The notes beneath the pieces were generated by a model. That model saw nothing but the letters and a program-made list of their open reading frames with translations, had not been told where the DNA came from and searched no databases. DNA of 64,000 bases from the NCBI GenBank assembly GCA_907163375.1, contig CAJQUW010001840.1, positions 186,001 to 250,000 on the forward strand. Direction: 5' to 3'. The translations under genes were made by a program, and so were the position numbers. Of this stretch, positions 6,394 to 63,640 are shown one piece after another. Position 1 is the stretch's first letter. Each line of letters starts with the position of its first letter. Origin of the DNA: Prostheceraeus crozeri (lineage: Eukaryota; Platyhelminthes; Polycladida; Euryleptidae).

Positions 6394-6413
6394 TTAACAC
6401 TAGAACCGCCATT

Positions 6414-6609
6414 GCAGTCAAATTGACTGCAATCAATTTTTGAATACAGCCAGAGCCTTAACTGAATTAGTTGTGATAATCAGAAGCTATGACATTTATT
6501 GCACATATCCAAGGAATGAAATTAAGTTAGAATTCATGAGTAAATATATCTATGGTTGAAAATACACGACAATATATCTTTAAGCGCCAATTGCAGTCAT
6601 TTTGACTGC
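6414..6609. promoter_or_regulatory. Subterminal palindromic transposase-binding candidates, left end
   Basis: Two copies of a 17-bp near-palindrome (6414-6430 and 6593-6609) lie inside the left end of the piggyBac element, and a third lies at 8936-8952 inside the right end. The arms are GCAGTCA and TGACTGC. In moth piggyBac, comparable subterminal palindromes are bound by the cysteine-rich domain. That these sites do the same job is inference. Confidence 0.65.
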
Positions 6610-6807
6610 AAATCAGTAAAGTATTAGTCTTCAACTTTCAAGCTTAGATATCTCATTTTTAACGCTAACAAAACAGTGAGTCATCATTCATCAACATGAA
6701 CAGGATCAAGTCATGGATATACCATATCGATCAAGTGTTTAGTTTCTCATCATACGCTCACTTTAGAAGAAAGTTGACTATCAGAAAAGGACAGTAGAAG
6801 TCTTACG

Positions 6808-8499
6808 ATGGCAGCACGACGTCGACGAATATCTGCGCAAACTGCTTTACAGATGATAACGCAATTGAATGGAGAAGTATCGGATGACGAAGAGGTGACC
6901 ATGGACGAATTTATAATCGAGAGTGAAAATTCATCCATTAGTGACAATGAAGATGTTGAGATTGACGACGAATCAATAATCAGACCGACTGGGCACAATA
7001 ACGGAGACCGACAAGAAACCGAATTACCACCATATCTGGGTAAAGATAAAAGTACTTTGTGGCAAGAAACAAATCGTGAGCGACGAGGACCGATCTCTTC
7101 GAAGAATATCTTCACAGCTAAACCCGGACTTTCTTATCGCTGCAAACGATCTATCTCCTCAGACGATGTATTTTCCGCCTTTCATCTTCTATTCGATAAC
7201 TATATTGTGAATCACATTCATGCATGTACAATAACTGAAGCCAATCGACAAAAACCTGATTCGGAATGGTCCTTCTCCAAAGAAGAGCTGCTCGCTGTAA
7301 TTGGAATTATGTATATTCGTGGTGCGACGTCAGCCTCAAAGTTTGATCTTGAAGCATTATGGAGTGATAAATGGGGTATTCCAATAGTACAGAATACTAT
7401 GTCTCGCAACCGCTTTCGTGAGATTATAGGATTTCTCAGATTTGATGAGAAAACTTCTCGGCGAAGTAGAGTTTTATCCGACAAGTTCTGCTTGATACGT
7501 GATATTTGGAAACGTATGATTGACAATAGCCAGGACATGTACACCCCTAAAGAATTCCTCACGATTGATGAACAGCTCTTGCCATCGAAATGCAGATGCC
7601 CATTTACCCAATATATGCCGAACAAACCGGATAAATTCGGCATAAAGTTCTGGGTTCTGTGTGATACCGAAACAAAATATGTCCTGAACAGCTTACCGTA
7701 TTTGGGAAAGGAGGAAAGTCGTCCAAGCAATGTTACTTTGTCTGAATACGTCGTTTGTGAATTGGTGAAACCGTACAAGAAATTGGGATATAACATCACA
7801 TGTGACAATTACTTTACGTCCTTGAGTCTTGCCTCTGCATTGGAAGAACAAAAGATTACCATGGTTGGTACCATCAGGAAGAATCGCCGCGAATTACCGG
7901 AAAAGTTACCTCAAATGGAAAAGGATATGATGCGTTACGAATCAAGATTCTTCTTGAACTCTAACAAGAAATGTTCTTTGACGGTGTATAAATCAAAATC
8001 AGAAAAATCAGTCTGCGTTCTATCGTCGATGCATGAATCTTGTACTTTTGGCGGCGGACCGAAAAATCTTCCCGAAACGGTCAATTTTTACAACAAAACG
8101 AAACATGGCGTTGACATGTTCGATAGCATGACACGTATGTATTCCACGAAGGCGGGCTCACGCAGATGGCCAATGCACGTATTTTACAATTTGTTGGACA
8201 TCGTTGCCCTAAATTCATGGATTATATATAAAATTGCTTGCCAAAAATCAATCTCAAGGCGAGATTATCTTCTTTTCTTGGGAGAGAGAATGTGTCAAAT
8301 TTTCAAACCTTTTGAGGTCAATTTGCCTGCATCCGTTTCAGAATCTCCAGCTAGAACAGCACTAAAGCGAAAGGAGTGCCAAATAAGCAAACATAAGAAC
8401 AAAGGTGGGAATGTTTGCAGTACATGCAAAAAATGGTGCTGTGGTCCATGTTCTGCAAACAAAATCATCATTGTTACATGTATAAACTGTGCCAAATGA
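6808..8499 (+). CDS. piggyBac transposase, intact 563 aa
   Basis: This is a DDE_Tnp_1_7 transposase expected to excise and insert the surrounding element at TTAA in the nucleus. An acidic low-complexity N-terminus (about residues 23-60) precedes the DNA-binding and catalytic core. The three catalytic aspartates are visible: D254 in TIDEQL, D333 in ITCDNYFTS and D436 in KHGVDMFD. Their spacing (79 and 103) is close to that of the moth piggyBac enzyme. The C-terminus carries the cysteine-rich zinc-binding domain (CSTCKKWCCGPC followed by TCINC). The ATG at 6808 opens the frame about 410 bp inside the left end. No stop or frameshift is present, and the length is normal for the family. Confidence in activity is lower than in identity, because expression cannot be judged. 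Confidence 0.93.
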   Translation: MAARRRRISAQTALQMITQLNGEVSDDEEVTMDEFIIESENSSISDNEDVEIDDESIIRPTGHNNGDRQETELPPYLGKDKSTLWQETNRERRGPISSKNIFTAKPGLSYRCKRSISSDDVFSAFHLLFDNYIVNHIHACTITEANRQKPDSEWSFSKEELLAVIGIMYIRGATSASKFDLEALWSDKWGIPIVQNTMSRNRFREIIGFLRFDEKTSRRSRVLSDKFCLIRDIWKRMIDNSQDMYTPKEFLTIDEQLLPSKCRCPFTQYMPNKPDKFGIKFWVLCDTETKYVLNSLPYLGKEESRPSNVTLSEYVVCELVKPYKKLGYNITCDNYFTSLSLASALEEQKITMVGTIRKNRRELPEKLPQMEKDMMRYESRFFLNSNKKCSLTVYKSKSEKSVCVLSSMHESCTFGGGPKNLPETVNFYNKTKHGVDMFDSMTRMYSTKAGSRRWPMHVFYNLLDIVALNSWIIYKIACQKSISRRDYLLFLGERMCQIFKPFEVNLPASVSESPARTALKRKECQISKHKNKGGNVCSTCKKWCCGPCSANKIIIVTCINCAK

Positions 8500-9255
8500 T
8501 TTTTGGAAACCATGACAGTTTTGCAGTTACTGTAAAAACCAATTACAGTACAAATTAGAACTTTGTTTTTTTGCTGCCTTTTATTATAATTTTCAATTCT
8601 TTAGGAAATATAAATAATAATAAATGAATTTATCATTCCAAAAGTAAAATAAATGCTATTAGACAAAATTAAATAACTTACTTGCAAAAAGTCAACTATC
8701 CAATAAACAGTGATATTTTTTTCGCAGCAAATTCTAAATAATTAGTTTTAATGCATAAATGAAAATATAGTGCATAACACAGTATATATGTTTACTCATA
8801 TAAACCACTTTGTTTATGAAAGTAAGTATAGCAATAATATGTCCAATTACCATGATAAATGATGAGCCAATAATAACCGGTAGAAATTTTAGGATGTCAG
8901 GTAATTACAGGGTTCTATTCATTATCTTTTATGTTGCAGTCATTTTGACTGCATTTGGCGGTTAAAGGTATGTAAAATTCTTGGCGGTTCTAGTGTTAAG
9001 AATCTTCTTTAACTTGTTGATCAGTCCTTGCTTTTTGGGCATATTGTGATGTGTCCGCGGACAAGCAGTGCACAAGCTATACTGTGTACTGTGACTGTCC
9101 GTTAGATTGTTTGAGTATCAGCTACATTTCTTTCGAACTATATCGCAGCCACTGAATTAGACAGGTCGGCTCTTTTTAGAAGAGAAGCTTCGTATAAAGG
9201 AATGCTGATGAAATGGCATAATCTGTTGACATAACACTGAACAAAAAGTTGTAAG

Positions 9256-25291: not shown

Positions 25292-26045
25292 GTTACTTTG
25301 TTCTGAGATCATAGCGCTTGACATTCTGCTTGTCGCATGACTTGTTGAAATGCGTAGATTATTTTCATTTTAAGTTGGGATGTGAGAAGTGACACTGTTA
25401 ACGGCAATGAATGTTCGCTGATAATGCTAGACATTATGTCATATCAATGTCGTGATCATTCTTCTTACAAATTTACAAGATACCAGATGTGAACTAGAAA
25501 TCTACTGGAATACTTACTCCTCCTGTGATTAGTCATGGTGAAGGTTGACTGGACACAATGGACACGATCAATTCTTCGATTTTTTCTCAAAAAGTGAGTG
25601 GAGTATATTATTCTTTCTATGCTCAGTCATTGTAGAACATCATCCGAAATGCTGAAAAGCTGCATTTTAAATATTTTTTGATTGGAAATCTATAACAAGA
25701 TAAGGCGAATTAAACTATAACTTGAATTAAAGATAGACAGTTATAAAAATTATATGGAATGAGAATGTGTGTAGTGAAAAGGATTGTTTAGCACAATATT
25801 TATGTTACCAACCAGAAATTTTAGAACCATGATGCTAATAAATAGCGCATGAAGCATACTAAGTTTTACGTCAGCTCGATGGAAAGTGGAGTCACAATTC
25901 TATGTGAATCATAGGCATCACAAGCGTGGTATGCATGCATGAATAATTTAAGCCTATAGTGCTATCACATTACCATGAACTTGAGTTTTGAACAATTTGA
26001 ACAAGGCACATCAATCTATATGCACTAAAATTTCGATAGCCTGCA
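25292..26045. other. Non-coding stretch
   Basis: No gene or clear repeat is seen between the Tc1 element and the minisatellite. Confidence 0.5.
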
Positions 26046-26325
26046 GGCCGAAGTCATCTGCTTCAAAAAGCTCCAATTCAGGCCGAAGTCATCGGCTCCA
26101 AACAGCTCCAATTCAGGCCGAAGTCATCGGCTCCAAACAGCTCCAATTCAGGCCGAAGTCATCGGCTCCAAGCAGCTCCAGCTCAGACCAAAGTCATCGG
26201 CTCCAAACAGCTTCAATTCAGGCCGAAGTCATCGGCTCCAAGCAGCTCCAGCTCAGGCCAAAGTCATCGGCTAGAAAGGTCTCCTGCTCAGTCCAAAGTC
26301 ATCGGCTCCAAACATCGCCAACTGA
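26046..26325 (+). repeat. Eight-copy 35-bp minisatellite
   Basis: Eight head-to-tail 35-bp units share the core AAGTCATCGGCTCCAA, with variants GGCCGAAG, GACCAAAG and GTCCAAAG at the start. Copies two and three are identical and the last two are more diverged. The unit is not a multiple of three, so the long frame through it (25988-26359) is probably an artefact. It lies about 430 bp upstream of the glycosyltransferase exon, perhaps inside that gene's intron. Confidence 0.9.
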
Positions 26326-26749
26326 GACCAAATCAGTTCAATTCAATTCAAGGCAGTAGGCTACAGTTCTGGCCATGATGAGCACGGTAGCCTATAGTGC
26401 ACATGCACAATAACTTACACTTTTATAATGCTCTTGATAACCCTGATATATATTTTGTGAAAGTTCTCGTGAAAGTTTGAGCAATTTATTTTCTCATATA
26501 AAGGCAGAGTTATTTAGCCCCAAAATTCAAATCGTCGCATGCTACATCTTTTAAAAGTTTCATTATTTTCAAATGTGAAATGTCTCCATGTGAAAAGGAT
26601 ATTTCTGCAGAATTGAAAAATAATATTCATGCACAATAGCAAAAGCCCTTCAGGAACTATAAAATGCTTCTAGAATCAAACAAAGATTTTCATTTATTTG
26701 CTTAATAACCATCATTATTCAAGTAGAACTTATTTATTTATCTTTTCAG

Positions 26750-31142: not shown

Positions 31143-31154
31143 AAATTAAGATGT

Positions 31155-31479
31155 AATCATTCGAAAAAACATAAATTGTAAATCAACAAACGTAATTTAT
31201 AAAATGATTTGTGGACGATGTAAAAAATTCTACATCGGCCAAACGGGGGATGTATTTCGACATCGGCTGACGGTACATCGCCAGCAAATCAAAGACAGTA
31301 GATACTGTGTGCTAAGTGTCAGTAGACACATAGCGAGATGTGGTGGCGGTCATTTTAGTGCTATTCCTTTCTTTCAGTTGTCCCCGGACGCTAATCGCTT
31401 GGACCGTGAGTCCAAGGAAGCTATGTTCATAAAATTTATTTCATCCTTACCTCAACGTTGTTTGATTTCTTTGATTTAG
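31155..31479 (+). pseudogene. Penelope-like element: GIY-YIG endonuclease fragment
   Basis: This is the C-terminal GIY-YIG domain of a Penelope-like polyprotein. Upstream of the Met at 31204 the frame reads CKSTNVIYK. It continues with MICGRCKKFYIGQTGDVFRH, then LTVHRQQIKD and SVSRHIARCGGGHF, and ends PQRCLISLI at 31479. The YIGQT box and the following Arg are the catalytic hallmarks. The reverse transcriptase is missing, so it is a 5'-truncated copy. The first 53 bp are duplicated in inverse orientation at 31090-31142 with an 18-bp spacer. Confidence 0.8.
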
Positions 31480-35296: not shown

Positions 35297-36629
35297 GACA
35301 GATTGAATCAGTCAAATCTATGTTTAGCATTTCATCTGCAGCAGTCATTTCTCGAATCGTGTTGTCTTTGAATGTCAGCCATTTTGGTGTGAATAATGCA
35401 GCTCCTAAGCAACCTACGATACTAACTTAAAGGAAACTCAAATGATATGAAGGATTAATTTCATACATGTATATCAAAGCTGCAAATGGACTGCCTGACA
35501 TTCTGCCAAATCCTCCGAACAATGCACCCTATTAACAGGCCGTTGGCAAGGTTTTCAGCTCCAACAATGTGCATTATAGCTTCTGCAAACACACCATGAG
35601 CACCAACGCCAATCCCACAAAGTCCACACATTACAGCTATATTCCAACATATTCTTGAAGAAAGCAGAAAGTGATGTTTACTATACCTGTCATTGCCCAG
35701 AATGCCATGAATATGAATTCGACGTGCAATTTAGAGCATGAGGCAATTAGTCCTGTTAAAATTCTGCCTGACAAGTTCCCAATGCCAATAATAGATGGTA
35801 AAAAGGTGATATTAGTTTTATTAAAGCCAAGAAGAGCACCGAAGTTTGTTACATGACTGTAGAAAACGCCAATACGCGAATCAAGTGCACGATTCCATAT
35901 CAGAAACAGAAGAGAACCCAATGAGGATTTTTGAACATTCTCAAGCTGCGACCTCGTTCCTTGCAGGCTTTGGCGATAAAGAAAGATAAATTTCTAGGTT
36001 TAGCAGTAGATTTCTCATCATTTGCTTTAGCATTAAAAATGCGTGGGGACATCAGAATTGCCGCAATAACCAGCATATTGAGATTCATCGCTCCCATGAT
36101 AAAAAATCCTCCTTGCCACGTGTACTCATCATTTGCTACTTGAAGAATCGGAGGATATATGAACTGACCGAGACCAGTCCCACAGCTCACTGCTCCCAAT
36201 ACGATGACAAGAACGATGTTTAAGAAAATATTGGGCAAGCACCGAATACACGGAATAATAACCGAAAGCAAAGCCGAAGCCAGCTACAACACCATACAAG
36301 ATTAGAATGGTGACCGAATTATCGACGAAATAACACGAAATAAGACCAAAAGTAGAAATAATGCATCCAACTACAATAGTCCGATGAGCTCCAAGCATGC
36401 TAGCGAGAGCATTAGTTACTTCTCAACTTAAGAAGAAGATAAATGTGCTGAGATTGACTGCCCAAGCTGTTAAAGTTGGTGGTTCTTGAAACTCATTTAA
36501 GAATGTCGTGTACATAATTGAGCTTGTACTCGTTAGCCCTACCGTAAAGAGCAATGAAAATATTCCAGAAATCATCGCAACAAATACCCATCCGTTGTCA
36601 ACATCAAGAGATGAAACTGTGTCCGCCAT
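35297..36629 (-). pseudogene. SLC16 monocarboxylate-transporter-like pseudogene
   Basis: This is an intronless paralogue of the gene at 832-2142, on the opposite strand and broken by several frameshifts. Reading from 36629: MADTVSSLDVDNGWVFVAMI (family signature DNGWVF), TAWAVNLSTF, a frame change, GAHRTIVVGCIISTFGLISC, and VAGFGFAFGYYSVYSVLAQ. After another shift comes GQFIYPPILQVANDEYTWQG, then a hydrophilic loop with KARNLSFF-like sequence and IGVFYSHVTNFGALLGFNKT, then LCGIGVGAHGVFAEAIMHIV in shifted frames. It ends near 35297 with TAADEM. Gene order is collinear with its partner. At least four shifts show it is dead. It provides the reference showing which residue the partner lost. Confidence 0.82.
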
Positions 36630-36714: not shown

Positions 36715-37637
36715 TTTTTGGATATTTTAATCATTCGAAAAGAAAGCCGTGTTATTACTGATATGCATTATAAATCTACGGACACTCATCAATACTTGCG
36801 TTTCGAATCTTGTCATCCCCATCATATCAAGCGTGCTATTCCATATAATTTGGCCAGACGAATCCGCACCATCGTAAATGATGATATTTTACGTGATAAA
36901 CGCCTAAATGAATTAAGAATATTTCTTCAGAATCAAGGATATCCTTTTAATTTGATTGAAGATGGTATAAAAGATCTTTATCTGTGAGTCGTGCTTTTCT
37001 GCTAGAGCAACAAAACAAAAATAAGAATAATACCGATGAATTCAATACTATTGATTTTGTTCATGCTCATAATCCAAACAATGTAAATATTATTCCTATC
37101 GTTAATCATATAAATTCTTTACTTCTTGATGATCCTCAAACTAAAAGTATTTTTGAACAAAAACAATTCATTGTAAGTAAACGTCAACCTAAAAATATTA
37201 AACCAATAATCTGTAAATCTAAATTTGAGTCTAATGAACAATTCTGTGTAAGAAAGTGCAACAATTTGAGATGCGGAACCTGCGAATATATTATGACTGG
37301 TGATTCATTTGATTTTAAGGTAAAGATTTTTAAAGTGAAAAGTAACATGTCATGTGAAACAAGAAATGTAATTTATGTAATTAGTTGTTGTGGTTGTGGT
37401 GAATATTATATCGGCGAAACAGGAAATACGATCCGTGCTAGAGTGAGGGTACACAAGCAACAAATAAGTCATCCAATATACAGACAAATACATCTAAGTG
37501 AGCATATTGAATCTTGTGGTAAATCCCGTTTTTATATATTTCCCTTTTATAAGATTTTTGATGATGATATATATACACGTAAGAACAAAGAAAAATACTT
37601 AATAAATATTTTCCATCCTACTCTCAATTGTACATAA
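36715..37637 (+). pseudogene. Penelope-like element: RT C-terminus plus GIY-YIG, one frameshift
   Basis: This is a 5'-truncated Penelope-like copy starting right after a TATATA run with FLDI, the conserved block downstream of the reverse-transcriptase catalytic box. Then come DMHYKSTDTHQYLRF, SCHPHHIKRAIPYN and ARRIRTIVND. One base is missing in an A-run near 36970, shifting LSVSRAFLLEQQ into the next frame, which stays open to 37637. That part has the cysteine-rich linker (CVRKCNNLRCGTCEYI) and the GIY-YIG domain NVIYVISC, YYIGETGNTIRARVRVHKQQ and SEHIESCGKSRF. It is the best-preserved Penelope-like C-terminus in the window. Confidence 0.85.
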
Positions 37638-38955: not shown

Positions 38956-39344
38956 TTTATTTTGAGTGTGATAAATCAAAGCTCCGCCGAAGAAACGGCG
39001 AAACAGTGTAAATGAAACACACAAGTCTCTCTGACCTTTGACTGTGCCTTGCACTTGCATCAACAATTGGGTCGTAGAGGGCAATCCCCAAATCCTCAGG
39101 CAGACTATCACATTGTTAACAACTTCATGGTACTGAGGATATCGGACAATTTTGATACATTGAGAGATAGGAGTTTCCACAGTATAGTCAAGCTGCTGAA
39201 CATAGATATTTTCTGTATTCCAGTCTTCTCACGAGTTCACAGTCTTTCTCTACCATATTGTGCGGTGACAGTTGCTATTTTGAATCAGTGTGCTCAACAA
39301 AGTCATTTTCTCGTCTGCTTGAGAATAGTTCGGCGAATCTCATT

Positions 39345-40806
39345 ATGGTGAAGAAATTGAAGTTGGATGAAGTTGTTGCAATGCTAGAAGATGACGAGTC
39401 GTTTGTGAATGCAGACATTGCAATACAGCCACCTGGAGATGGAGATTGTTCAGAGGAAGACAGTGCAGATGAGGACGATTTTGACATCAATCGATTGAGC
39501 GGCAATCAGCTATTGGCCGAGGCTGACGTTCGAATAAAATTCGGTGATCGAATATCTGATACCATGGATGATGATTCACAAAGTGAGTCCTTGGGAGATG
39601 CCTTGCAGACTAACTCTATCCAAGACGACAGCATTCATAGAGGACGTTTGAGTGATGAAAAGCCTCCACTGCTGACTGATTTGAGATGGACTAATCGTGA
39701 CATCAAATCAAGGAATTCACAGAGCACACCTGAAGTGAACCACTTAGAGGAAATTGGGACACCTCTCTCTCTGCTCGAATTGTTCTTTGATGATATGTTG
39801 CTCTCAGACATTGTTGACTTTACAACGTTATACGCATGAAGAGAGAAAAGTGACACAGAGTTTGGCATCACAAAGGAAAAATTTATAGTTTGGGTAAAAT
39901 ATATATAAAGTTTGGGTACTTACAGAAGTTTACGAGTATGTGATTCAATTCGAACCCTACCAAGGGGCTAAAACAGGGCGGCATATCTCGACAACAACAA
40001 CATGGGGACTAGGTGAGCATATTGTTTTGAATCTAATGGAGCGCTTACCTCCAGGTCAAAGCTACCATGTATACATGGATAACTATTTTACTTCATTCCG
40101 GTTGCTTTCCTATCTCGGAACAAGGGGTATTAGTGTAGCTGGCGCAATCAATAAGAAAAAATTGAGCAAGTGTGATATCATGGGTAACAAAGATCTTGAG
40201 AAAAAAGAACGAGGTCATGTGGAACAGGTGACTGCAGAACAGGATTCGACAACTAAAACAGTTGCAGGTTGGAATGACAACCGAGCTGTCTAGATTGCCT
40301 CCAACAAGAAATGTACAAAGATGGAGCAAGATTGAGCGAAAGTATATTCAAGTGTCGCAGCCAAACCTATTCCATTGCTACAACCAGTGCATGGGATACG
40401 TCGATAGAATGGACCAAAATGTTGCAAAGTATGGAATCGGAATTCGCATGAAGAATGGTGGTGGGCTCCATTCGCATGGATGCTGGATGTGGCCTTGCAA
40501 AACTCTTGGATTCTTTATCGCATCAATAAGTCATGTGACAGTGCTCAACTAAGTTTGCTGGACTTCCGACGTGAAGTCGTGAGCTCCATCCTTCTGAAAT
40601 ATAAAACCAGTCGAAAGCGATCATATTCCTCTGCTGCAATTTGCAATGTTCCTTCAGAGGTTCGATTTGATGATGTGAAGCATTATCAAACTCCCGCACA
40701 AAAGCAGGGGAGATGCAAAGTCTGCAAAACGAACTCTAGAAGATGTTGTGCAAAGTGCCGAGTAAATTTGCATGATGAGTGTTTTGAAGTGTTCCATCGA
40801 TGCTGA
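39345..40806 (+). pseudogene. piggyBac transposase with internal deletion
   Basis: The N-terminus (from ATG 39345) is acidic and typical, reaching SLLELFFDDMLLSDIVDF, and the frame closes at 39839. After a further GITKEKF, sequence equivalent to roughly the middle 200 residues is missing, including the first catalytic Asp. Coding sense resumes near 39937 with the second-Asp motif YHVYMDNYFTSFRL (about 40065-40106). Stops and shifts follow. The third-Asp region survives only as GYVDRMDQN in another frame (about 40395). The C-terminal zinc domain CKVCKTNSRRCCAKCRVN ends at 40806. Near the presumed right end is an ATGTTCCC/GGGAACAT palindrome (41099-41119) and a TTAA at 41251-41254 after GGG. 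Confidence 0.82.
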
Positions 40807-42007: not shown

Positions 42008-44552
42008 CCCTCTTCCGTCAACCTGGGGTCAAATTGATCCCACGAAACTTCAATAGTAGATCATAATGTCAAATAATACCTCTCTTATGGCCTGCCTGAT
42101 AAATAGCTTTCCCTGCAACAAATTTAGCACAAAAAGTTTTCTCTGTATACATTTGATTGAAAAGGAAATGTACAGTCTGAGGTTTCAGATGATACAACGT
42201 ATTTCGTCAACCTGGGGTCAACTCAACACTTCATTTCAGTAATTTATTTTATCAGCCATTCCCGCGGCAATTAGTGAATATAATCCACGGTTGAAATTTG
42301 TCAGTCAATCACACACAGTCTTTTTATAGCTCGATTGGTTTATTGTCCAGTCGGTTAGTGCATGTGTGCATATGAGAGTGCCATTGCAGTAATTTATTTT
42401 ATCGTTCGACGACCGATAAATAGGGTCTTAGTACGATAATGTTGGATAATGTCCGCTGATGGATATAAATCAAATGTCTGATGCACGCGCTTTGTAATTA
42501 CAATGGCTCGCAAAATGTACACAACGGAAGACGTAGCGCGACAAATAATGGATCGCGAAAGTGGATCTGATGTTTCTGATATTGAATTGACTGAGGATGA
42601 ATCAACTCCAATGACTTCCAATGACGAATCCAATGACTCCTCCGATGAAAGCGAAGACTCTGATAACGATCACCCTCCGCCTTTACATCAGCGAGTCAAC
42701 ATACCACATCAGCTACGAAGCAAAAATGGGCGAATATGGAGTACAAATCCGGAAAGGCCGACACAAGCTCGTGCTTCAAATGTACTTCGGCAACAAAGTG
42801 GGCTCAGTAGTGCGAGCGTCAGATCAGTTTATACTATCTTTGATAGTTTCAAGATATTTTTCACAAATGATATGATACTTCTAATTGTTCGAGAGACAAA
42901 CCGTAGAGGGCAATCTACAGCACGAAAATGGAATCAAACACATGAGAGAACCCATGGTTGGCGTGAGACTGATTCGTCTGAAATAGAGGCTATTATCGGT
43001 CTTCTGAATTTGGCAGGTATGTGGCGATCTTCAGGGGAATCTCTAGACGAACTATGTTCAGCGAAAGATGGTAGACCCGTATTCAGGGCCACAATGTCTC
43101 TTACGCGTTTCAAAGAGTTGTTGAGGTACTGTCGATTCGACAGTCAGGCAACTAGAGAGCAACGTATTTCACAAGACAAATTGGCGCCTATCCGTGACTT
43201 CTGGGTAATGTTTTTGGCCAATCTACAACCCGTTTATAAGCCAGGCAGTGACATAATAGTCGACGAGCAATTGATAGCGACACGATGGCGGTGCAGTTTC
43301 CGGCAGTACTTGCCCTCGAAGCCCGGAAAATACGGCATAAAGGTATTCTGGGCTTGTGATAGCGAAACGTCATTTCCTCTGAAAGGTGAAGTCTATCTTG
43401 GTAGGCAACCCAATGCACCAGTTGGGTCAAATGTAAAAGATCTTGTGAAACGATTAGTACAGCCCTGGATAAAGACAGGAAGAAATATAACAATGTATAA
43501 TTATTTTACATCGGTTGATTTAGCTCATGATTTGCTTGCCATGCGCACTACAATTGTTGGAACAATAAGAAAAAACCGTGCTGACATCCGAGAGAGATGC
43601 AAAGCAATCGCAGCAGGCCAGAGTATTCATCTATTTTTGGATTTGATCGTCAACTTAACCTCGTTAGTTATGTTCCAAAGAAAGGAAGGTCCGTCATATT
43701 GTTGTCTTCTATGCACCATGATGATTCTATCGATGAAGACGACAAATATAAACCTGTTATTATCCAACATTACAACAAAACCAAATCTGGCGTAGACGAT
43801 CTGGATCATTTGGCAAGGCTTTATACTAGTAAACGAAAAATAAAGCGTTGGCCAATGGTATTCTTTTTCAACATGATAGACTGTGGAGCAATTGCAGGTT
43901 ATATTACGTCGTACATGAAATTCCCAGATTGGAACAAAGGCAAATCTTATAAACGACGACTTTATCTGAAAGAACTGGGATTCTCCTTAGTTGAAAGGCA
44001 AATCAACAAACGTATTCAAAATCCTCAAGCTCTACACTCACAAGTAACTGTTGCCATGCGATCACTGGGTTGTCAGCTTCAAAATGAAACTTCAAATCCT
44101 CCAGCAACGGGAATGTTGACTCAAAGACGGAGATGCTTTTTCTGTCCCCGCTCGATTGACAAAAAGGTGAGCACACAGTGTTTCCGTTGCAAGCGTTCTT
44201 GTTGTAAAGATCATGGACTACTTTTGTGCAATGAATGTGTCTAAATCATGCAAATTTGTTTGTGAAATTGCGATGATTCTCTTAAATTCATTATGAAATT
44301 TGAATTTTTTGGAAATCTGGTGTTTTTATTTTCACTTCAGAGTGGGAGCATGCGAAAGATAGTAGGCCTACAGCTTGTATTATCAAATATCAATAATTTC
44401 TTACTGCATCTAAATGCATCTAAATTCTTAAAAATATGATTGATTTAATGACTATCGCATCTAAAAGCAATAAAAGCACAAATTTCTACCATGGGGTCAT
44501 TTTTCCCCCAGGTTGAAAAAATGTGATGTATTTTAAGGTTGACGTCACAGGG
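42008..44552 (+). mobile_element. piggyBac element with TIRs and TTAA duplication, inactive transposase
   Basis: This 2,545-bp element is flanked by TTAA (42004-42007 and 44553-44556). The left end CCCTCTTCCGTCAACCT matches the complemented right end CCCTGTGACGTCAACCT at 14 of 17 positions. The 17-mer CGTCAACCTGGGGTCAA occurs at 42016-42032 and again at 42205-42221. The right end has the related GGGGTCATTTTTCCCCC followed by AGGTTGA (44493-44516). Confidence 0.9.
42503..44244 (+). pseudogene. piggyBac transposase, one frameshift and a lost catalytic Asp
   Basis: This is an almost full-length transposase. An acidic N-terminus (about residues 20-55) is followed by the core with the first Asp in DIIVDEQL (about 43252-43275). 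The second-Asp motif reads ITMYNYFTS: the codon at 43496-43498 is TAT where the family has GAT. After GTIRKNRADIRERCKAIAAG a one-base shift near 43600-43625 moves the frame. The rest is open to 44244, with KTKSGVDDLDHL (third Asp), KRWPMVFFFNMIDCG and the C-terminal zinc domain CFFCPRSIDK and CFRCKRSCCKDHG ending in CNEC. Either lesion alone should abolish activity. The ends are well kept, so it could still be mobilised by a related enzyme. Confidence 0.88.
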
Positions 44553-60143: not shown

Positions 60144-60419
60144 TCAAAATATCAATGTCTGATAAGTTGAACATTCATCTTTGTTGAGGCTTGGTTTCAT
60201 AGATTTTATTAATGTGGCCTCTCTGAAACATAGGTTAATGCTGTTTGCATCAAACGCTATGATTTTGACTGTAAACGGGAAAGCTATGTTAGGAGAAGAG
60301 CAACTTAGGTGATGTTTGAGTACACTTGAGACTTTGTTTGTGGCATATCCTTTAATGCGTGTAGGGAGTGAACGGACTGTACTCCCGATATAATTACTTT
60401 TACACGTTTTGCATGTTAT
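60144..60419 (-). pseudogene. Penelope-like GIY-YIG domain, 3' part, split by a piggyBac insertion
   Basis: The minus strand reads ITCKTCKSNYIGSTVRSLPT, then RIKGYATNKVSSVLKHHL and CFREATLIKSMKPSLNKDE, ending at 60144. YIGST and the following Arg are GIY-YIG hallmarks. The residues before ITC in the open frame belong to the piggyBac end. Across the 3 kb insertion, at 63498 and up, the minus strand supplies the expected upstream cysteine-containing segment in the same frame. The domain itself has no visible stop. Confidence 0.8.
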
Positions 60420-63400
60420 CCTGTTGAGCCCCGAGGACGTGCAGAGCACGTCCTGTGATAATTGCTTCAATTGCCCAATATATCATTAACTACATGCTCT
60501 CAACTGACAAAGACGTGCAGTGCACGTCCTTTTCTCATTTCATCTAATTGACAATGTAGGAGATCGACTACACTCCGACAACTGACATAGACAAATGCAA
60601 AATCGTTTGATATGCTTTGCAATACATTCATGTTGCATACAATAATGATTATTTATGCAATTATAGATTTTATGGATATTTAAATTCATCCGTACAGATA
60701 TTTTACTTTAAGTTACTTTCATGAATAAAGTATAAGGAACGATGAGTCAATTCCAGATTTTTATTCGAATCCTATTCAATTTTCAGATGATATTTAGAAT
60801 CTTAATTATCCGTGCAGAATTGCTGTAAAAATACAGGCATGAAGTATAATGATTTCGATCTCTATGATGCTTATCTCACAGTGAGTTATTCTAAGTATAA
60901 TGCGAAACAATGCAAAGCGCTATTGATTTCAATGTCATTAAATTTGAATACGATTGACTTCAAATCATCCGAATGCGCAGATATCTATGAAATTCTTCTC
61001 ACAGTTCTGTACAACATAATGAATGCGTGGCTAATATATTTCAAAAATCGCTATTGGTTTCGCTGACGTCAATTATTCCGATTCAACATTGCATTGTATA
61101 CTAAACTGTCGTAAAAACCTTTTTCTCAATTCAATCTCGTCATGCAAAAGAGAAGGTGCTTATCAGCGAAGCAAATTGCCGCACAGCTCAATGCTTTGGA
61201 TGACAGTAGCTACTCTGAAGATAGTACAAGTAGTGATGACGATGAAGACAACGATATTCCCAACATCGCAACTGACATAAGACAAGGAGAGTGGACTTTC
61301 GTTGAAGAGGGCCATGACTTTCTCGAGATTCGTAATTTGCAATTCACCCAAGAAAGTGGAATAAATCTTACTTACGATGTGCCATCTGACGTGAATAATA
61401 ACATTGAATTCTTCATTGATTTATTTCTTGATGACAATCTATTCCAACTGCTATGCGACTGGACAAACAAGAAAGCTGAACTGACTTTCGAAGAGTACGA
61501 CGTGAGCCCCGAGAACAACCTACCGGCATCATTGGCGAAATGGCGTCCTGCTACCATTATTGAAATGAAAAAGGTCATCGGAATTATGTTATGTATGAGA
61601 TTGAACCAAAAGCCAGAAATTCGACATTATTGGTCAAGAAACATCCTATATAAAAGTGACTTTTTTCAGAGTCCGCATTGCCTTCCTCGAAATCGGTTTG
61701 AGGAGGTCGTGAAATTTCTTCGGTTTTGTGATTACAGTGACTTGGATGATAATGACACTCTTCGAAAAATTCGCCCTTTTCTATCTTTTGCCCAAGAAAA
61801 ATGTAAGACTGTCTATAAGCCGAAGCAAGACATTTGTGTTGATGAGAGTCTGCTATTATACAAAGGCAGAATCCATTTTCGACGATACATACCTTCGAAG
61901 AGATCGCGATATGGTATGCTGACGTACTGCCTATGCGAAAGTTCTACCGGATATACTTGGAACATTGAGGTAGCAGCAGGAAAAAAGGAGAACGAAAACA
62001 TACTGAAGGACGTCTCGGATGATGCTAAAAACTTTACTTTCAGCGAGAAAATTGTGATCGCTCTTCTTGCCGACCTATCAAATTGTGGATATCATCTTTA
62101 CGTTGATAACTTTTTTACAAGTGTCCGTCTGGCTGCGTATCTTTACGAAAGGAATACTTTGCTTACGGGAACTATTCGTCCTTTCCGTGGTGTTCCACAG
62201 ATTTTGCGAGATAAGAACGTTCCGGCAAAATCACACGCATTCTGCAGAAAGGACGAGGTTTTGTGTGTGAAGGCAGTCGAGCGAAAGTCATCTGGCCTCA
62301 AAACAATTTACTTGGTCGACACTGCGAACACCGCTGGTACTTCCTCGCATCAAAGGATTTTACGCGGAGGAGTTGAAGATAACATCAACAAATCATGGTC
62401 TGTCCTGGCATACAATAAATGAATGGGTGGTGTGGACTCGCGAGACGGTAGTCTGCATCAATACAACATGGCAAGAAAGAACTACAAGTGGTTTACAAAA
62501 CTTGGAATTCACCTGACACATGTCATGATCCGGAACTCGTGGATTGTATACAAAAGTTGTGGTGGAAACTGTGATTTCCTAAGCTATCAAGAAAAAGTCA
62601 TTGAAAATTTTGTTGTGAAAAGTGGTCAAATTCGACGCTCTGGACCTTCGGGAGGTCGGTTGCCTCTCAACGCGAAAGATTCAACAGTCTGCACGCCCTC
62701 AAACGACTTTCGCCTCGTCCGAACAAAGAACGCCCGGCAAAGAAATGCCGCATTTGCGCGAGTGATGGTCGCAGGAAGGAGACTGTTTTTGTGTGTCCGG
62801 ATTGCCCAACAACACCAGCGCTATGCGTTGAAGAGCTATGCGTTGCGAGGAAGATTCATAATGCGGCAATCATCCTGTTATGTTTAGTTTTTATTTGTTA
62901 AGTCCTTACTATGGATCTTATCAGGATGCTATACATGTATATAATAATAATGTTTGATGCATTACATAGAAAAGTGTTTGTATATATTTACATGTAAAGA
63001 GGTCACGCTAATTACAGTTGATTCAAGTTTTAATTGATTAATGAAGTTTCAGAGTACTGGGGCGAAGAATGGTTAGCATAATAATGGTTAGCAAATAATA
63101 GCTCAGCATTATTATGCAGGAATTTTGCAATCTAATGATAATTTTATATAAAACGAAGTCTAGTTTAGAATAGCGTAAATTTATACATGTACAGTAGAAG
63201 TTCATCAGTTATTTGGCCTAAATACATTTATTAAGTATAGTCCTAACCTACTACAGGTGTATTTTAGACATTAGTTTATTCATTTAAAGAATCCTAGGAA
63301 TTCCAAGGACGTGCTCTGCACGTCTTTGTCAGTTGGTGTAGTGTATCGCAGGACGTGCTCAGCACGTCCTTGTCAGTTGAGGTAGTGAAAGTTAATATAT

Positions 63401-63493
63401 TGTTCTCAGAATCTGCCATACTCAATGGGACGTGCACTGCACTTCTTAGTCAGTTAGAGTCATGTATGATTTTAAAAACTGGGGCTCAACAGG
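60420..63493 (+). mobile_element. piggyBac element with perfect 13-bp TIRs and TTAT duplication
   Basis: This 3,074-bp element begins CCTGTTGAGCCCC and ends with the exact inverse GGGGCTCAACAGG. TTAT lies directly outside both ends (60416-60419 and 63494-63497), instead of the usual TTAA. Palindromes of the form GGACGTGCNNNGCACGTCC occur twice near the left end (60435-60453, 60512-60528) and three times near the right end (63307-63325, 63351-63369, 63428-63446), the latter each followed by GTCAGTT. It contains a nearly complete transposase. Confidence 0.92.
61142..62901 (+). pseudogene. piggyBac transposase, in-frame TGA and C-terminal frameshift
   Basis: ATG 61142 opens a frame of 426 codons. 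The N-terminus is acidic (residues 20-45). The core has D234 in ICVDESLL and D322 in LYVDNFFTS. Codon 427 is TGA (62420-62422), and reading continues in frame with MGGVDSRD, giving the third Asp at codon 432. Then follow IRNSWIVYKSCGG and YQEKVIENFVV. After about 62640-62690 the frame changes, and the C-terminal zinc domain KKCRICASDGRRKE with VFVCPDCPTTPALCVE lies in the next frame, ending at 62901. Only two lesions separate it from a full gene. The fresh-looking ends and duplication agree with a young insertion. Confidence 0.88.
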
Positions 63494-63497
63494 TTAT

Positions 63498-63640
63498 TTC
63501 ATGCACTACCATAGCTCTCAAACAGATGTTGCTGTCAGCAATAACGCACTGATTCAATTTACACTTACGTTTGGAATGTGATTTTCTATTACGAATGGCT
63601 ATTTAGGAAGGCGACATGCAGTGCTTCAGCATCATCATTG
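63498..63640 (-). pseudogene. Penelope-like element, upstream part of the split GIY-YIG region
   Basis: The minus strand from about 63580 down to 63498 reads CKLNQCVIADSNICL then RAMVVHEI, the cysteine-bearing linker that normally precedes the GIY-YIG domain. It is in phase with ITCKTCK at 60419 if one TTAT copy is counted. Further upstream I see no clear element sequence before the window ends. Confidence 0.65.

Follow-up and report, generated by a model that had tools for sequence, protein, structure and literature searches.

Can a piggyBac transposon regularly use targets other than TTAA? In piggyBac vectors, targeting of TTAA is regarded as invariable, and the tetranucleotide is called obligatory in a passage of a 2026 preprint (PMC13405395). 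A 64,000-bp stretch of the genome of the flatworm Prostheceraeus crozeri (C1514:186001-250000 of the 2.05-Gb assembly; below, the window) contains a 3,074-bp piggyBac-type element that is flanked by TTAT instead. An earlier note on this DNA read the element as a genuine insertion at TTAT, and added that canonical piggyBac is almost strictly TTAA-specific. The latter statement is right, and low-frequency insertion at TTAT/ATAA has already been published (PMC3849761 and PMC6651600, in the passages concerned).

Table 1. Features of the focal element, of the coding region that it interrupts and of the control element, in window coordinates
Feature	Position	Strand	Remarks
Control element, a different, PB-like piggyBac family	6398..8995	+	ends CACTAGAACCGC (perfect); TTAA on both sides
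Open 573-codon frame of the control element	6778-8499	+	
Interrupted retroelement coding region, C-terminal part	60144..60419	-	ITCKTCKSNYIG... to stop
Left target-site duplication, TTAT	60416..60419	.	direct reading
Focal piggyBac-type element, 3,074 bp	60420..63493	+	at least 49 genomic copies with a left end
Left terminal inverted repeat, CCTGTTGAGCCCC	60420..60432	+	exact reverse complement of 63481-63493
Left subterminal palindromic repeats (GACGTGC...GCACGTC)	60434..60531	+	repeat families D2, I2, I7
Transposase, N-terminal part and most of the DDE domain	61142..62422	+	Pfam PF13843, E=1.4e-59
Transposase, remainder	62423..62887	+	MGGVD motif in frame, then frame change
Transposase, C-terminal zinc-finger part	62605-62898	+	other frame
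Right subterminal palindromic repeats, three copies	63305..63466	+	repeat families D1, I1-I4
Right terminal inverted repeat	63481..63493	-	exact reverse complement of CCTGTTGAGCCCC
Right target-site duplication, TTAT	63494..63497	.	direct reading
Interrupted retroelement coding region, upstream part	63498..63602	-	...CLRAMVVHE; joined frame; continuous in genomic copies

On both sides TTAT lies flush with the perfect 13-bp inverted ends, as the earlier note had described (Table 1), and the 64-kb window holds no further match to the 13-mer end at fewer than three mismatches. The subterminal palindromic repeats on the left are possibly transposase-binding sites. The transposase of the window copy is broken, its first part ending at an in-frame TGA stop. 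An unbroken 578-aa frame is present in 6 of the 40 family copies checked, including L022 (at CTAT; PF13843 E=1.1e-66, PF13842 E=8e-08) and L045 (at ATAA). These six frames argue that the family was recently active.

The site before insertion can be read directly. Deletion of the element and one TTAT in silico gives a single open minus-strand frame, ...CLRAMVVHE-ITCKTCKSNYIGSTVR... across the junction, which bears out the restored frame reported earlier. The interrupted retroelement coding region, with its GIY-YIG-like end, is termed Penelope-like here, a name that is not a database label; the proof of the TTAT site is independent of it. The joined peptide aligns over the junction with window 31153-31434 (30% identity, E=0.001) and window 37353-37628 (28%, E=0.006). 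The second of these belongs to an ORF that Pfam matches to GIY-YIG (E=4.7e-07); the left-flank part itself matches that domain weakly, at 18.1 bits vs a Pfam cut-off of 22.6. The joined flanks were then searched for in the genome, where the earlier note had proposed to look for the uninterrupted target. Among the best 40 of 831 candidate places, which were scored, 20 were read, namely all 16 that span the whole query and four others. Fifteen have TTAT at the site, five have TTGT and none has TTAA. Because the empty copies are TTAT or TTGT and never TTAA, they support the claim that the site was already TTAT before insertion and no mutated TTAA. Several copies of the retroelement are arranged as inverted pairs a few bases apart (e.g. 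C7911:27912-28502).

The target sites of the whole family were tabulated, as had also been proposed. The first family search gave the best 40 of 114 candidates, all with identities of 98% or more in the left 285 bp, and an exact 23-bp left-end pattern, from which the duplication was excluded, occurs 46 times in the genome. Together with three changed left ends (L030, L033, L041), 49 left sites were read. The 46 exact left ends carry TTAA in 31 cases, another NTAN in 13 (TTAT 3, ATAA 3, ATAT 2, TTAG 2, CTAT 2, CTAG 1) and unrelated letters in two. Both ends are readable in 43 of the 49 copies, and 38 of these 43 have matching 4-bp duplications: 26 are TTAA and 12 are not (32%; 95% interval 18-49%, reflecting the small number). 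The non-TTAA duplications are TTAT (window, L043, L078) or ATAA (L033, L034/L096, L035, L045) in seven copies, ATAT in two (L009, L010), TTAG in two (L018, L086/L087) and CTAT in one (L022); the central TA is kept in all 12. The family thus duplicates 4 bp and prefers TTAA, the central TA being the sole invariant part of the matched sites seen, and about a third of its standing insertions lie at other NTAN sites. Insertion outside TTAA is a property of the whole family, beyond the single exceptional insertion seen first. The outcome named beforehand as fatal to the earlier note, with all other copies and the intact target at TTAA, did not occur.

The remaining ends fall outside the matched set. 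Five two-ended copies have unmatched ends (L031, L039, L041, L046 and C11273); the mismatch is gross in L031, L039 and L046, and L041 has TTAA on one side and TTGA on the other. Six copies have a left end only, at TTAA (L028, L044, L079), CTAG (L021), TTAT (L030) and CTAT (L036). Eleven places with a right end only (TTAA 6, TTAG 2, ATAA 1, CTCA 1, one degraded) were kept out of all counts. The left and right flanks of L012, L031, L039, L041 and L046 are alike over 64-298 bp at 99-100%, and these copies look as if they had inserted in, or been rearranged with, tandem repeats. Flanks of 40 copies were compared pairwise in every combination, nine later additions being left out; the comparison found no shared insertion site and just two short cross-matches (30 and 51 bp). 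L078 (C1059:289399-289678) belongs to the focal family but has shrunk to 280 bp by internal deletion; its site is TTAT in family orientation. Diverged relatives of the right end (L149-L154) were considered for the census and rejected as too old. L154 is the single two-ended one, with TTAA on each side; the other five have TTAA, TTCA, TTCA, ATCT and TAAG at the right end. In L152 (C9331:135640-136195), a tandem array of subterminal palindromes with a spacing of about 44 bp precedes the right end.

NTAN makes up 7.2% of the 4-mers in the window. Measured against this window background, matched insertions number 72 per 1000 sites for TTAA, 7.8 for TTAT/ATAA, 4.6 for TTAG/CTAA and, where both outer bases are changed, 3.5 for ATAT and 1.9 for CTAT/ATAG. 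The preference for TTAA over the next best class is therefore about nine-fold. The remaining five NTAN classes (ATAC/GTAT, CTAC/GTAG, CTAG, GTAA/TTAC, GTAC) have no matched insertion, CTAG being present once, as a left end only. A ±10-bp profile that pools both strands of 23 TTAA sites (of 26) has a pyrimidine at position -2 in 74%, and no other position is conspicuous.

A different piggyBac family in the same genome serves as control (Table 1). Its transposase is closest to piggyBac of T. ni (6x67, E=8.8e-71), and the genome contains 116 of its left ends at up to three mismatches. The sample was the first 40 listed, with the window copy and one contig-edge copy left out. These left ends of a single family, with 38 distinct flanks, are at TTAA in 39 cases and at ATAA in one; the other family is thus near-strict for TTAA. 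The difference from the focal family is significant by Fisher's test for the 46 focal left ends (p=2.4e-4) and for the focal matched set (p=5.7e-4). Two more broken piggyBac-type transposase genes, recognized by eye in the translations, lie at window 39171-40806 and 42482-44244; no convincing terminal inverted repeats with a matched duplication were found for either.

Empty sites were also sought for other insertions. For eight non-TTAA copies the joined flanks were compared with the genome in two pooled queries, with the best 40 places scored in each. Among the matches listed, the empty copies of L010 (ATAT) read ATAT in three of four, the fourth being deleted over the site; the one empty copy of L035 (ATAA) reads ATAA, and all seven of L043 (TTAT) read TTAT. 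For L022 (CTAT), all 16 copies read, out of 36 listed, have CTAT. For L033, each of the six diverged copies read, out of 22 listed, is gapped at the site and carries no information on its letters, and for L045 one short spanning match is among those listed (C8347:163786-163855). L009 and L018, displaced by other matches, have no place among the 40 scored in their query, even at their own flanks. Together with the window insertion, 42 of 48 informative empty copies have exactly the duplicated letters, five have TTGT, one is deleted and none is TTAA. These readings cover five of the 12 non-TTAA insertions (window, L010, L022, L035, L043); L009, L018, L033, L034, L045, L078 and L086 fall outside this confirmation. 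Since empty copies from the same repeat family share ancestry, they do not each count as an independent proof.

The family is young. Mean pairwise divergence among 31 full-length copies is 1.0%, with 1.3% among non-TTAA copies vs 0.9% among the rest, and the most diverged copy, L018, reaches a mean of 2.9%. A transposase subtype dedicated to non-TTAA sites was considered and not seen, since most of the 31 aligned copies, whether at TTAA or not, are nearest to L031.

These observations are very probably explained by relaxed target specificity of the transposase in a young cut-and-paste family that belongs to the piggyBac superfamily. The basis is the matched duplications, the five pre-existing empty sites, the young age and the near-strict TTAA of the other family. 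A mutational origin, in which the element landed at TTAA and both flanks later mutated or were gene-converted, is very improbable. L041 demonstrates that single-side mutation happens, whereas at 1.0% divergence an identical parallel substitution in both duplications is expected in about 0.001 of the 38 copies. Later mutation therefore cannot account for the non-TTAA duplications, and for five insertions it is contradicted by empty copies bearing the same non-TTAA letters. An assembly or recombination artefact that joined ends from different copies is just as hard to credit. The unmatched two-ended copies are what it would produce, and four of the five (L031, L039, L041, L046) have mutually alike flanks; however, matched duplications dominate (38 of 43), and the flanks of five insertions are continuous in their empty copies.

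A more serious competitor, still improbable in our judgement, is ordinary leakiness, in which the transposase would be as strict as that of T. ni piggyBac or of Pokey of Daphnia and the sample happens to be a high draw. Non-TTAA insertion with a conserved TA is indeed already known at lower rates. In the passages concerned, PMC6651600 gives about 2% in mouse ES cells for T. ni piggyBac, after Li et al., while PMC3849761 cites cell assays with 7.2% for bat and 2.4% for human and itself gives 11.9% for Pokey. TTAT/ATAA and TTAG/CTAA are the commonest alternates there as well as here. However, 12 of 38 differs from 2.4% at p=6e-11 and from 7.2% at p=9e-6, the same-genome control has 1 of 40, and both outer bases are changed in 3 of 38 duplications here (ATAT twice, CTAT once) and in none in the Pokey table. 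The comparison with Pokey itself is modest (14/118, the total being inferred from its percentages; Fisher p=0.010).

Relaxed specificity does not place the family outside the superfamily. Its transposase is a homologue of the piggyBac DDE/DDD enzymes (PF13843 and PF13842, and piggyBat and piggyBac in the PDB, by sequence), perfect 13-bp ends are common to family copies, and the 4-bp duplication is preferentially TTAA (26 of 38). Some papers state that TTAA is used exclusively, from which 12 of the 38 duplications depart; we do not take exclusivity as defining, because T. ni piggyBac and Pokey deviate too. Similarly, the focal ends start with CCTG and lack the CC[C/T]T motif given as typical in PMC2872659, a motif that we do not regard as defining because CACTA and other ends are reported in passages of PMC10813416.

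Among proteins of known structure, piggyBat of Myotis (PDB 9c0f, E=4.1e-46) is nearest in sequence to the focal transposase. It is said to insert always at TTAA in the relevant passage of PMC13405395, vs the 7.2% of the bat assay cited above. T. ni piggyBac (PDB 6x67/6x68) shares the DDD transposase (E=4.3e-21), the 4-bp duplication, 13-bp terminal repeats (PMC3408717, in the part concerned) and the inner T/A contact residues, and differs in its low non-TTAA rate and its omega loop. Pokey (mPok) has the same preference for TTAA, the alternates TTAT/ATAA/CTAA and the middle TA in the passage of PMC3849761 concerned; it differs in its lower non-TTAA fraction (11.9% vs 32%), in a table that contains no ATAT or CTAT, and in additionally targeting a 28S rDNA site. 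That passage contains no empty-site evidence, which the focal family has for five insertions. For PiggyMac of Paramecium, a passage of PMC3408717 describes a 4-bp cleavage site in which the central TA alone is conserved. The same holds for all 12 non-TTAA sites here, with TTAA still strongly preferred; PiggyMac, however, is a domesticated excision enzyme without transposon ends, whereas the focal family is a mobile transposon. In compact animal genomes, scattered piggyBac types with TTAG, CTAA, GTAA and other duplications are listed by PMC10813416, per element type and attributed to mutation, with neither a family census nor empty sites in the passages concerned.

The alignment with piggyBac suggests a possible structural cause of the relaxation. 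By piggyBac-type chemistry, the 3'-OH ends would attack both strands 4 nt apart, over an unpaired NTAN. In the parts of PMC7351741 concerned with the T. ni hairpin complex, N440 touches the inner A, and the methyl group of the inner T lies in a pocket of V414, L416 and Y439. In the strand-transfer complex, all four bases of the target are unpaired, in nearly the same shape. A3, an outer base, forms a hydrogen bond with T0 and stacks on Y283, and the authors propose that the T0-A3 bond enforces TTAA. In the focal transposase Y439, N440, L416 and Y283 are conserved and V414 is replaced by I (piggyBac numbering), which fits the central TA being invariant. At ATAT and CTAT, T0-A3 is missing from both strands, and the focal transposase would have to tolerate the absence of this outer contact. 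Its omega loop carries M282R, P288R, K290R and R275K, while the control family has K at 275 and Q, P and K at 282, 288 and 290. The extra basic residues at 282, 288 and 290 could provide a non-specific hold that offsets the lost contact. R275K was rejected as the cause because the control family has K too. A stronger version, that the focal transposase is freed of the T0-A3 contact and reads essentially the central TA, with the TTAA bias arising from ease of melting and bending, seems to us tentative and somewhat doubtful. If true, the family would represent a living stage between piggyBac, specific for TTAA, and PiggyMac, which needs TA alone, and target choice could be dissected with it as a natural mutant.

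Whatever its letters, a matched duplication gives complementary overhangs, so that clean, seamless excision would be expected from non-TTAA sites as well.

A literature search, with most subscription papers outside its scope and many sources represented by passages, found no natural family with about 30% non-TTAA insertions, none with ATAT or CTAT, and no empty-site proof. Within that scope, we did not find in print the degree (32%), the loss of both outer bases (ATAT, CTAT) or the proof by empty sites. Junctions without the central TA are frequent for piggyBac in mouse pancreas, in few samples (PMC6651600, passage concerned); unlike there, no TA-less site is found among the matched duplications of the focal family. 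Annotation that requires TTAA would miss or mis-bound such insertions, and explanations of aberrant duplications in surveys as mutated may be wrong. With a recently active family that has unbroken frames and places about a third of its insertions outside TTAA, the basis of specificity is testable by loop comparison with the near-strict family.

Elsewhere in the window, an MFS transporter-like frame lies at 1132-2142 (PF07690, E=2.1e-26), and a similar MFS-like fragment is found about 34 kb off at 35900-36283, with 72% DNA identity over about 325 bp. An open frame at 25985-26359 consists of tandem repeats of about 35 bp.
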